This document shows, one piece after another, positions 28,499-56,707 of a stretch of 64,000 nucleotides of DNA. This DNA comes from Heterorhizobium halophytocola (GTDB lineage: Bacteria > Pseudomonadota > Alphaproteobacteria > Rhizobiales > Rhizobiaceae), in the NCBI RefSeq assembly GCF_017873095.1, contig NZ_JAGGJU010000007.1:186001-250000 (forward strand), in the 5' to 3' direction. Numbering within the stretch: position 1 is the first letter of the stretch; each line of letters opens with the position of its first letter. The translations under genes were made by a program, and so were the position numbers. The notes beneath the pieces were generated by a model. The model made no database searches, was not told where the DNA came from, and saw only the letters and a program-made list of their open reading frames with translations.

Positions 28499-28576
28499 AT
28501 GCTTGGCGCGGGGGTGGTGCACCCGGCGAAATTTGCGTGACAGCCTGGTCCGTTCCTGAAACACTGGCCGCTTGAG

Positions 28577-28655
28577 AGACAGGGGCGTCCGTCAAACCAG
28601 ACGGGCTGAGACGTACCCTTGGAACCTGAACCAGATCATGCTGGCGGAGGGAGTC
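28577..28655 (+). promoter_or_regulatory. TPP riboswitch (THI element)
   Basis: The segment contains the conserved TPP-aptamer pieces in order: ACAGGGGCG, GCTGAGA, ACCCTTGGAACCTGAACC, and CTGGCGGAGGGAG. It lies 73 bases before thiD and should lower thiD expression when thiamine pyrophosphate is plentiful. No clear intrinsic terminator follows, so control of translation is more likely. Confidence 0.93.
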
Positions 28656-28727
28656 GCTCGGGTCTGTGCCCCATGTCTTTCGGCACGCTTGCGGCCCGTA
28701 GACCCTGCCCCGCCGGAAAGGGCAAAG

Positions 28728-51986: not shown

Positions 51987-54086
51987 ATGCAGGGGGCGGC
52001 CGGTTCGGTGACACTTAACAGACAAGTGTGGCCAGGGGAATATAATCACGGGACGGAACGACAGCCGGGACAGGCTGTCGAGCCGCTATGGTCGTTTGGC
52101 CTGGAGCAGCCGGACCGCTGCGAACCCGAGAACGCGTCCGAGCCGGACCTGGATCGCGTTTCGCCGGCCCTGCGCGACGAAGTGCAGCTTCTCAAACGTC
52201 TCGGTTTCTCCAAGCCGGCTCTTGCCCGATGCGTTCGCAGGGCCGTGCAGAACGCCAGCACCGTGGAAGAGGAATTGCTCGCCAATGAGGGCGTCGAGCC
52301 TGAGGCCTATTATGCGGCGCTGGCACGCACGGCGGGTTTGCCCTTTTTCTCCGATATCGACCCCGCGGCGATCATCGGGGTCTCCGGCGACGAGACGCAG
52401 CTTGCCGAACCGAAGGTCGTTCGCCTTGTCGCCCGCGACCGCCAGGCGGTGACCGCGCTGGTGCCGACGGCTGCCATGATGGCGCGGCTGTGTGAGCGGC
52501 TGACCGTTCTGCCGGCGCTCTCCCGGCAACTGGTCATCACCACGCCGGCGGCGATCCGCCAGGCCATGTGGCGGCGCGGCCGCCAAGAGCGGGTGCAGGC
52601 CGCGACCAACGCGCTGTTCGATGCCAGGCCGCGGCTTTCGGCGCGCATCGTCGTGTCGGGCTCGCAGGGCTTCGTCCTCGGTGCCGGCGTCATGGCGCTC
52701 GTCGCAGCCTTCCTGGTGTCGCCGCTCGACATGCTGCTGCTGGCCCATATTGCCGGGTCTCTGTTCTTTGCGGCAGCCTTGATGCTGCGGGCAGCGGCTC
52801 TTTTTCGCTTCAAGCGGCGACGGCAGCGGAAATATCTGACAAGGCTCAGGGTAACGGACGACTGCGCACCGCCGATCTATACCGTGATGATCGCGCTCTA
52901 CCGCGAGCATGCGGTCGTTGCCCAGCTGCTGAAGGCGCTCGACGGCCTCGACTGGCCGAAATCGCGGCTGGACGTCAAACTGTTATGCGAGGAGGACGAT
53001 AGCGAGACGATCGATGCGATCCGCCGGCTGAGGCCGCCCGGATATGTCGACGTCGTGGAAGTGCCCGCGGCCGGTCCACGCACCAAGCCCAAGGCGCTGA
53101 ACTACGGGCTGACGGCGGCGCGCGGCACCTATCTTGTGATCTATGATGCGGAAGACAGGCCCGATCCCGGCCAGCTGCGCGAAGCCTGGGAGCGGTTCGA
53201 AAGCCGGGCCATGAACGTTGCCTGCCTGCAGGCGCCGCTGGTCATTTCCAATCCGCGAGGCTCCTGGATATCGGCGCTGTTCGCGCTCGAATATGCCGGC
53301 CTGTTCCGCTGTCTCCTGCCGATGCTCGCAGACCGCCGGCTGCCGCTGCCGCTTGGCGGAACTTCCAATCATTTTCGGATCGACGCGCTGCGGCAGGTCG
53401 GCGCCTGGGATCCGTTCAACGTGACGGAGGATGCGGATCTGGGGCTGCGCCTCTATCGCTCGGGCTTACGCGCCGAAGTGTTGACGACACCGACCTATGA
53501 AGAGGCGCCGCAGGCGGGCGGCATCTGGGTGAAACAGCGCACCCGCTGGTTCAAGGGATGGCTGCAGACCTGGCTGGTGACGTTGCGCAATGCGCCCGGC
53601 GCGATGGGCGAAATGGGGCCATGGCCATTTCTGGTCACCCAGTTGATGATCGGCGGCATGCTGGTTTCGGCGCTGTTGCATCCCGCGCTTCTGCTGTTCG
53701 TCGGCCTGACCGCCGTCAAGCTCCTTGCGCTGCCATCGGCATCGGTGGACTGGAGCCGGTTGGTGCTGTTCTGGATGGACCTCGTCAACATCTTCGGCGC
53801 CTATGCCTGTTTCCTGGCGATGGGCGGAAAGGCGATGGAGCGGATGGAGTGGGAGGCGGTGCGCCGCCGCGTGATAGCCATTCCTCTTTACTGGATGATG
53901 ATGACGGTCGCTGCCTGGCGTGCGGTCTTCGACCTCAGTCGCCGGCCGCATTTCTGGGAAAAGACGCCGCATGCGCCGCTGGAGCCGGACATGCCTGTCG
54001 AGAGCGAAGCCGAGATCACCTTGCGCCACCTGCGTGCGCTCAGGCAGGCCATTCTGCGACGGTCGGTAGAGATCTGGAGCGGGTGA
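51987..54086 (+). CDS. Large family 2 glycosyltransferase with N-terminal GspE-N-like domain
   Basis: 699 residues. Residues about 50-180 (LLKRLGFSKPALARCVRR to QAMWRRGRQ) resemble the MshEN/GspE N-terminal module that binds c-di-GMP in some proteins. Two membrane helices near 225-270 precede the GT2 domain: YTVMIALYREHAVV, DAEDRPDPGQL (catalytic Asp), VTEDADLGLRLY and QRTRWFKGW, the Q/RxxRW of processive synthases. Three or more membrane helices follow. It may make an exported polysaccharide. The start is uncertain; the stop lies inside the tRNA-Gly gene on the other strand. Confidence 0.87.
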   Translation: MQGAAGSVTLNRQVWPGEYNHGTERQPGQAVEPLWSFGLEQPDRCEPENASEPDLDRVSPALRDEVQLLKRLGFSKPALARCVRRAVQNASTVEEELLANEGVEPEAYYAALARTAGLPFFSDIDPAAIIGVSGDETQLAEPKVVRLVARDRQAVTALVPTAAMMARLCERLTVLPALSRQLVITTPAAIRQAMWRRGRQERVQAATNALFDARPRLSARIVVSGSQGFVLGAGVMALVAAFLVSPLDMLLLAHIAGSLFFAAALMLRAAALFRFKRRRQRKYLTRLRVTDDCAPPIYTVMIALYREHAVVAQLLKALDGLDWPKSRLDVKLLCEEDDSETIDAIRRLRPPGYVDVVEVPAAGPRTKPKALNYGLTAARGTYLVIYDAEDRPDPGQLREAWERFESRAMNVACLQAPLVISNPRGSWISALFALEYAGLFRCLLPMLADRRLPLPLGGTSNHFRIDALRQVGAWDPFNVTEDADLGLRLYRSGLRAEVLTTPTYEEAPQAGGIWVKQRTRWFKGWLQTWLVTLRNAPGAMGEMGPWPFLVTQLMIGGMLVSALLHPALLLFVGLTAVKLLALPSASVDWSRLVLFWMDLVNIFGAYACFLAMGGKAMERMEWEAVRRRVIAIPLYWMMMTVAAWRAVFDLSRRPHFWEKTPHAPLEPDMPVESEAEITLRHLRALRQAILRRSVEIWSG

Positions 54087-54148
54087 AGGGAATCGAACCC
54101 TCGTATTCAGCTTGGGAAGCTGCTGCTCTACCATTGAGCTACACCCGC
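54078..54148 (-). tRNA. tRNA-Gly (anticodon CCC)
   Basis: Minus strand: acceptor GCGGGTG/CACCCGC, D stem GCTC/GAGC with AATGGTA loop, anticodon loop TTCCCAA (anticodon CCC), T arm GAGGG-TTCGATT-CCCTT. 71 bases without CCA. Its last nine bases overlap the end of the glycosyltransferase gene. Confidence 0.95.
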
Positions 54149-55329: not shown

Positions 55330-55410
55330 GTCGTCGTTCCTGTTTGGCGAGACAAAATCAAAACCGGAGAATTGACGCAAGTCCGCGATCGGCGTATTGG
55401 AGCCTTATCC

Positions 55411-55462
55411 CGTGGTGATTTGGCCGGTCGGCTTGCAGCCACGTTAAACAAGTGGCTAAAAA
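55411..55462 (+). promoter_or_regulatory. SAM-II riboswitch
   Basis: The conserved pieces are in order: GTGATTTGGCC, CGGCTTGCAGCC, ACGTTAAACAAGTGGCTAAA. This is the SAM-II (metA) aptamer known upstream of metA and metZ in alphaproteobacteria. It lies about 60 bases before metZ and binds S-adenosylmethionine to lower expression. Confidence 0.93.
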
Positions 55463-55474
55463 GACCGGGTACGA

Positions 55475-55501
55475 AACCGGTCCGCAATGACCGGTTTTTT
55501 T
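55475..55501 (+). terminator. Intrinsic terminator between SAM-II aptamer and metZ
   Basis: AACCGGTC, CGCAAT, GACCGGTT followed by TTTTT. An alternative pairing of GACCGG (55463-55468) with CCGGTC (55477-55482) would break it, so this may be the switch's expression platform. Confidence 0.85.
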
Positions 55502-55522
55502 GTATTCGAAAGGCATGACGGC

Positions 55523-56707
55523 ATGAGCAGCAACTGGCGTCCCGCAACCAAGCTCGTTCACGGTGGCACCCTCCGCTCGCAATATGGCGAGACGTCCGAG
55601 GCCATCTACCTCACCCAGGGTTTTGTCTATGACAGCGCGGAAGCGGCGGAAGCCCGCTTCAAGGGCGAGACCGACGGCTTCATCTATGCGCGTTACGGCA
55701 GCCCGACCAACGACATGTTCGAAAAGCGCATGTGCATGCTGGAAGGCGCGGAAGATGCGCGTGCCACCGCGTCCGGCATGGCTGCCGTCACTGCGGCGAT
55801 CATGTGCCAGCTGAAAGCCGGCGATCATGTGATCGGTGCGCGGGCGCTGTTCGGCTCCTGTCGCTGGGTCATCGAGACGCTGGCGCCGCGCTACGGTATC
55901 GAATTCACGCTGGTGGACGGCCGCGACATGACCAACTGGGAACAGGCGATCCGGCCCAATACCAAGGTCATGTTCCTCGAAAGCCCGACCAATCCGACGC
56001 TCGAAGTGGTCGATATCGCAGGCGTTGCCAAGCTCTGCAACCAGATCGGCGCCAAGCTTGTCGTCGACAACGTCTTTGCCACCCCGCTTTTTCAGAAGCC
56101 GCTGGAACTCGGCGCGCATGTCGTCGTCTACTCGGCCACCAAGCATATCGACGGCCAGGGCCGCTGCCTTGGCGGTGTCGTGCTGTCGTCGAAGGAATGG
56201 ATCGACGAGAACCTGCATGACTATTTCCGCCACAGCGGCCCGGCCATGTCGCCGTTCAACGCCTGGACCCTGTTGAAGGGCATCGAGACGCTGCCGTTGC
56301 GCGTTCGTCAGCAGACGGAGAATGCAGCCCGGGTCGCCGACTTTCTTGCGGAGCATCCGAAGATCGGCAAGGTGATTTATCCCGGTCGCGCCGACCATCC
56401 GCAGGCCGATCTGATCGCCCGGCAGATGACCGGTGGCTCCACCTTGGTCGCCTTCGAGATGAAGGGCGGCAAGGAAGCGGCCTTCGCCCTGCAGAACGCG
56501 CTGGAGATCGTCCGCATCTCCAACAATCTCGGCGATGCGAAGTCGCTGATCACCCATCCGGCGACCACCACGCACAAGAACCTTACCGACGAGGCACGGG
56601 CCGAACTGGGTATTTCCGTCGGCACGGTGCGTCTGTCCTGCGGCATCGAGGACGGCACCGACCTGATCGAGGATTTCGATCAGGCGCTGAAGCGCGCGGG
56701 CGTCTGA
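55523..56707 (+). CDS. metZ: O-succinylhomoserine sulfhydrylase
   Basis: 394 residues from ATG 55523. YARYGSPTNDMFEKRMCMLEG and the PLP Lys in VYSATKHIDGQGRCLGG near residue 208 identify the Cys/Met metabolism PLP family; the MetZ group has ARATASGMAAVTAAIM. It makes homocysteine from O-succinylhomoserine and sulfide. The SAM-II riboswitch and terminator upstream link it to the SAM level. apaG follows after 160 bases. Confidence 0.95.
   Translation: MSSNWRPATKLVHGGTLRSQYGETSEAIYLTQGFVYDSAEAAEARFKGETDGFIYARYGSPTNDMFEKRMCMLEGAEDARATASGMAAVTAAIMCQLKAGDHVIGARALFGSCRWVIETLAPRYGIEFTLVDGRDMTNWEQAIRPNTKVMFLESPTNPTLEVVDIAGVAKLCNQIGAKLVVDNVFATPLFQKPLELGAHVVVYSATKHIDGQGRCLGGVVLSSKEWIDENLHDYFRHSGPAMSPFNAWTLLKGIETLPLRVRQQTENAARVADFLAEHPKIGKVIYPGRADHPQADLIARQMTGGSTLVAFEMKGGKEAAFALQNALEIVRISNNLGDAKSLITHPATTTHKNLTDEARAELGISVGTVRLSCGIEDGTDLIEDFDQALKRAGV

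Follow-up and report, generated by a model that had tools for sequence, protein, structure and literature searches.

How SAM acts on the methionine gene behind a putative SAM-II riboswitch in Heterorhizobium halophytocola, through the ribosome or through the polymerase, is the question raised by this locus. The window, by which we mean the whole 64,000-nucleotide stretch analysed (contig NZ_JAGGJU010000007.1, positions 186,001 to 250,000), carries the element on the + strand, where cmscan matches Rfam RF00521 (SAM_alpha) at 55402–55480 with 82.4 bits (E 4.7e-17) against a gathering score of 36 and spans model positions 1–79 of 79. The initial annotation had described a SAM-II switch followed by an intrinsic terminator; the aptamer match and a terminator at 55473–55501 bear this out, with the correction that the Rfam aptamer begins nine bases before the annotated left end at 55411. 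The covariance model is matched in both sequence and P1, whose 5′ strand at 55411–55416 pairs with 55438–55443 in the cmscan structure line, and a gene of methionine/SAM synthesis lies downstream. Furthermore, the loop segment CCGGTC at 55424–55429 (L1) is complementary to GACCGG at 55463–55468 (R), the two forming the 5′ and 3′ strands of an extended P2 pseudoknot. In the SAM-II class, the P2 pseudoknot is the part stabilised by SAM. Elsewhere in the window, a TPP riboswitch aptamer is found at 28571–28669 (+; RF00059, 63.5 bits, gathering score 54.3).

The gene behind the aptamer is metZ, encoding an O-succinylhomoserine sulfhydrylase of 394 aa (55523–56707, +; NCBIfam NF005696.0, 785.3 bits with a cut-off of 675; TIGR01325.1 also above its cut-off). 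Judged from the sequence, translation most likely starts at the ATG at 55523, preceded by a Shine-Dalgarno-like GAAAGG at 55508–55513. An in-frame ATG at 55487 was considered and rejected as the start, as it falls at the terminator loop and, of 173 distinct metZ elements, just 15 have an ATG there in any frame. A probable promoter at 55372–55400 (+) consists of TTGACG (55372–55377), a 17-nt spacer and TATTGG (55395–55400), and the transcript would be expected to start at about 55406–55408, a few bases ahead of P1. A consensus scan did not list 55372–55400. TTGAC occurs no more than 45 nt upstream in all 81 metZ leaders inspected (the window and 80 relatives), at the same distance in 77 of them, compared with 3 of 1205 control windows, a count that represents conservation and not independent evidence because the leaders are related sequences. 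The upstream neighbour is a divergent dCTP deaminase gene on the − strand; a + strand terminator ends no transcript from it, and we therefore rejected the possibility that the terminator belongs to the upstream gene. Beyond the dCTP deaminase gene lies a tRNA gene (54078–54148, −; RF00005, 70.7 bits), and at the Sinorhizobium meliloti locus in our set (L068) a tRNA match is similarly distant before the SAM-II match, which fits a shared gene order.

The intrinsic terminator stands between aptamer and gene. Its stem (55473–55498, +) has 10 bp and a 6-nt loop and runs into a T tract at 55495–55501; the core of its 5′ arm is CCGGTC at 55477–55482 (T5) and that of its 3′ arm GACCGG at 55489–55494 (T3). 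The segment 55470–55502 folds at −14.4 kcal/mol (z −4.19), a value equalled by none of 200 shuffles. R complements T5 as well as L1, and the resulting GACCGG/CCGGTC hairpin at 55460–55488 folds at −11.6 kcal/mol (z −3.02), again with 0 of 200 shuffles equal. The earlier observation that GACCGG at 55463 can pair with the CCGGTC arm of the terminator is thus exact in its position. Longer stretches stand out less from their shuffles, with 10 of 200 as good for 55460–55502 and 28 of 200 for 55440–55502, while for the whole of 55402–55503 a single shuffle in 200 was as good. A consensus scan over 2 kb returned one terminator-like match, not above the shuffle mean of 1.6.

Taken together with the comparison of relatives and the published results for the S. 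meliloti orthologue described below, this anatomy leads us to conclude, with a probability of roughly 0.9, that the SAM-II riboswitch represses metZ by transcription attenuation. The leader contains, in order, L1 (CCGGUC), R (GACCGG), T5 (CCGGUC) and T3 (GACCGG), with each segment able to pair with its neighbour. At high SAM, the aptamer would fold co-transcriptionally and SAM would fix the L1:R pseudoknot, sequestering R, so that the T5:T3 terminator forms and the polymerase halts at about 55501, leaving a leader RNA of about 95 nt. At low SAM, R would be free as T5 emerges; R:T5 would form first and delay T5:T3, and the polymerase would read into metZ. In the window copy, SAM would thus control termination, and R:T5 would probably serve as the operative antiterminator. 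Attenuation, with the end of the aptamer choosing between two hairpins, had been proposed for this locus before and remains the best reading, but the proposal had missed that GACCGG is itself a strand of the pseudoknot, the very property that would make the switch SAM-dependent.

Since the terminator (−14.4 kcal/mol) is more stable in isolation than R:T5 (−11.6 kcal/mol), antitermination would need either a kinetic advantage or some outside help. Transcription completes the T5 core 12 bases before the T3 core, so R:T5 could form first despite its lower stability in isolation. We folded growing transcripts at every third length, with neither pseudoknots nor ligand in the model, and obtained L1:R at lengths 65–80, R:T5 from length 83, once T5 is out, and in addition L1:T3 from about 92. 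The full window leader is predicted to be a mixed ensemble, in which the pseudoknot-free minimum free energy (MFE) fold of −38.1 kcal/mol has R:T5 and L1:T3, the read-through form, and the centroid has L1:R and the terminator. The predicted fold also contains a hairpin at 55437–55457 that competes with P1; its letters vary among several relatives. Unconstrained MFE folds of 174 elements gave the terminator in 115 and R:T5 in 50, with R:T5 and L1:T3 together in 34.

In order to place this arrangement in a wider context, we collected 281 loci, which with the window make 282 sequences, all matching the aptamer model. By tblastn, the downstream gene is metZ in 222, metA in 42 and neither in 18. 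Among the relatives of metZ, 80 of 292 were used, mostly from Rhizobium, Ensifer/Sinorhizobium, Neorhizobium, Shinella, Agrobacterium and their kin, as befits a host of the Rhizobiaceae, and the aptamer lies upstream of metZ in all 80. Removal of one locus (L241) and merging of identical leaders left 242 distinct elements, in which we called a terminator where a hairpin of −8 kcal/mol or better carried a T tract, with two dinucleotide shuffles of each leader as controls. By this measure, a terminator is present after 173 of the 186 distinct metZ elements (shuffles 149 of 372), 36 of 39 metA elements (31 of 78) and 11 of 17 others (9 of 34). A census across the order, covering 103 labelled loci (the window and 102 matches), included 86 metZ loci, 62 of which, from 30 of 39 families, have a terminator together with R:T5 at −8 kcal/mol or better; 11 have a terminator and a weaker R:T5, and 13 have no terminator. 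Both features are present at the sole metA locus of this census and at 10 of the 16 loci where neither gene was identified, the other 6 having no terminator.

Further copies came to light in the same genus. The genome of the window has two SAM-II copies, one before metZ and one before metA (L002 1501–1578, −), and the latter has a terminator-like hairpin of −17.1 kcal/mol between aptamer and gene. A third SAM-II copy (L270 121–199, +; 78 bits) in a same-genus genome has TTGAC upstream, a terminator and one changed R base, and neither metZ nor metA was found within about 1.3 kb downstream; it may be a leftover of rearrangement or a free-standing RNA. The locus set aside above, from another same-genus genome (L241 1201–1281, −; 40.5 bits), looks decayed: its 5′ half resembles the metZ copies, while its 3′ half does not and is without the GCTAAA core.

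If R acts on the terminator, R and T5 might be expected to vary together. We compared duplex energies with those of permuted partners in the 164 of 173 metZ elements whose hairpin begins at least 9 bases past the core, comprising 112 distinct R/T5 pairs. The mean R:T5 energy was −12.85, compared with −11.72 ± 0.18 after permutation, and 0 of 500 permutations were as good. Ten elements of the neither-gene class (9 pairs) gave −12.57 against −11.52 (12 of 500), and 36 metA elements (20 distinct pairs) showed no signal (−7.79 against −7.66; 142 of 500). Drawing one random metZ locus from each of 32 families, with 50 such draws and 200 permutations per draw, we again found that R:T5 beats permutation (z −3.23, 32 of 10000), as do the pseudoknot L1:R (z −3.23, 26 of 10000), the terminator T5:T3 (z −11.77, 0 of 10000) and L1:T3 (z −2.33, 194 of 10000); the controls R:T3 (6000 of 10000) and L1:T5 (4543 of 10000) gave no signal.

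These numbers must be weighed against chance, that is, against a GC-rich terminator sharing CCGG with the aptamer by accident. The segments are CCGG-based and near-palindromic, so pairing potential is cheap, and a reversed R also beats permutation against T5 (z −2.28, 289 of 10000), indicating that composition and palindromes explain part of the R:T5 signal. By the longest strict Watson–Crick run, R:T5 (526 of 5000) does not surpass the reversed control (507 of 5000), and the pairs that stand out are L1:R (5 of 5000) and L1:T3 (4 of 5000). Against an accident speak the shuffle z-scores of both hairpins, the restriction of the R:T5 relation to metZ when set beside metA, and the substitutions themselves. 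Where the second base of R is A (80 of 184 elements), its T5 partner is T in 76, C in 3 and unmatched in 1. Of the 99 elements with G instead, 53 have C and 34 have T as the partner and 12 have no match; the R motif is missing in the remaining 5. The rare A–C combinations all come from one family (f6), with R:T5 energies of −3.8 to −4.9. In addition, among 178 elements a joint change of L1, R and T5 from G/C/G to A/U/A is seen at one R position in 4 loci from 3 families and at the next position in 1 locus. An accidental match is on this evidence highly improbable, and we regard R:T5 pairing as supported but not proven by the comparison.

The behaviour of L1:T3 invites a more elaborate scheme, in which the aptamer loop L1 captures the second arm of the terminator in the absence of SAM. 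The four strands would then exchange partners as a set, with SAM favouring L1:R and T5:T3, and its absence favouring R:T5 and L1:T3, which would seal the read-through state. If true, this would be a compact design, as ligand response and terminator alike would be encoded by a single 6-base word and its complement. The MFE fold of the window leader is exactly the state expected without SAM, 34 of 174 elements fold likewise, and L1:T3 complementarity exceeds permutation across families. We consider such an exchange rather unlikely, and L1:T3 may be only a side effect of the other three pairings.

The absence of an R:T5 relation from the metA elements also bears on a different account of the locus, namely that the aptamer masks the ribosome site and so controls translation, next to a terminator that works constitutively, the arrangement suggested for S. 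meliloti metA. The Shine-Dalgarno motif is GGAGG, and no run in R (GACCGG) resembles it. The GAAAGG of metZ at 55508–55513 lies beyond the terminator, in neither L1 nor R. Such a translational switch has precedents, as the crystallised metX SAM-II aptamer has its ribosome site within the pseudoknot (PMC10907184) and, in the available sections of the S. meliloti study, the metA switch is read as translational, and for its terminator neither a riboswitch-driven antiterminator nor a response to SAM is predicted (PMC9373788). That reading of S. meliloti metA agrees with the contrast between metZ and metA in our census. With the Shine-Dalgarno-like site outside the switching helices, we reject a translational switch for metZ as very improbable. 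The general statement that accompanied the initial annotation, that SAM-II switches are mostly thought to block ribosome access, fits the crystallised metX aptamer and a review based on that structure, but the surveys, as far as their available text goes, tie alpha-proteobacterial SAM-II to terminators (PMC1273637, PMC2258182).

Attenuation of metZ also agrees with what is known of the S. meliloti orthologue, for which SAM-dependent termination was predicted (Scheuer et al. 2022, PMC9373788). In strain 2011, according to the sections of that paper at hand, an RNA of about 100 nt termed RZ goes up and metZ mRNA goes down as SAM rises, with medium and controlled metK expression as the means of variation, these being in vivo RNA levels that are also shaped by promoter activity and RNA stability (PMC9373788). 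One could accordingly place the main control at the promoter or in RNA stability and leave the riboswitch only to tune it, since at high SAM metZ promoter activity is lower and the stability of both RZ and metZ mRNA higher (same sections of PMC9373788). Control of this kind is compatible with attenuation and does not exclude it, but would leave the conserved terminator and the strand shared with the aptamer unexplained; that it is the main control is hardly probable. The metZ leader of S. meliloti 4H41 (L068) differs from that of the window at few aptamer positions, keeps all four segments in the same order and has a terminator before metZ; its R reads GGCCGG in place of GACCGG and the loops differ, and the published measurements were made in strain 2011 (PMC9373788).

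The literature searched contained no report on the window copy itself, and titles and abstract openings yielded none of SAM-dependent termination in vitro by any SAM-II element, which is not proof of absence. The window element adds one more example to a kind of switch already described and in part tested; the finding is sound, though not new. For the class, Corbino et al. (2005, PMC1273637; available text) described P1 and P2, placed a possible promoter immediately ahead of P1 and, in many members, a putative terminator between P2 and the gene, and suggested an OFF logic. Their metA motif and the window element share this layout of P1, P2 pseudoknot, possible promoter and putative terminator; SAM binding was tested on the RNA of Agrobacterium metA, whereas the window element precedes metZ. 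Barrick and Breaker (2007, PMC2258182; available text) found SAM-II most often with regulatory terminators in alpha- and beta-Proteobacteria, with the distal pseudoknot interfacing with the expression platform, a prediction that the window element fits, although the survey is class-wide and does not include this locus. A 2014 regulon study, in the part available, reports SAM_alpha ahead of a gene it calls metY in 26 of 30 genomes from two lineages of alpha-Proteobacteria, and ahead of metA in six genomes of Rhizobiales (PMC4239095). The translation-type metX RNA belongs to the same aptamer class as the window element and differs in having, as far as the available text describes it, a ribosome site inside the pseudoknot, where the window element has a terminator arm as the alternative partner (PMC10907184). 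At metZ, the usual form in the genomes compared has a terminator, which tempers the crystal-structure picture of SAM-II as a ribosome blocker. The metX RNA of that picture is presumably the Sargasso Sea element named by the S. meliloti study. An association with terminators is also what the 2005 and 2007 surveys, in their available sections, described for the SAM-II class (PMC1273637, PMC2258182).
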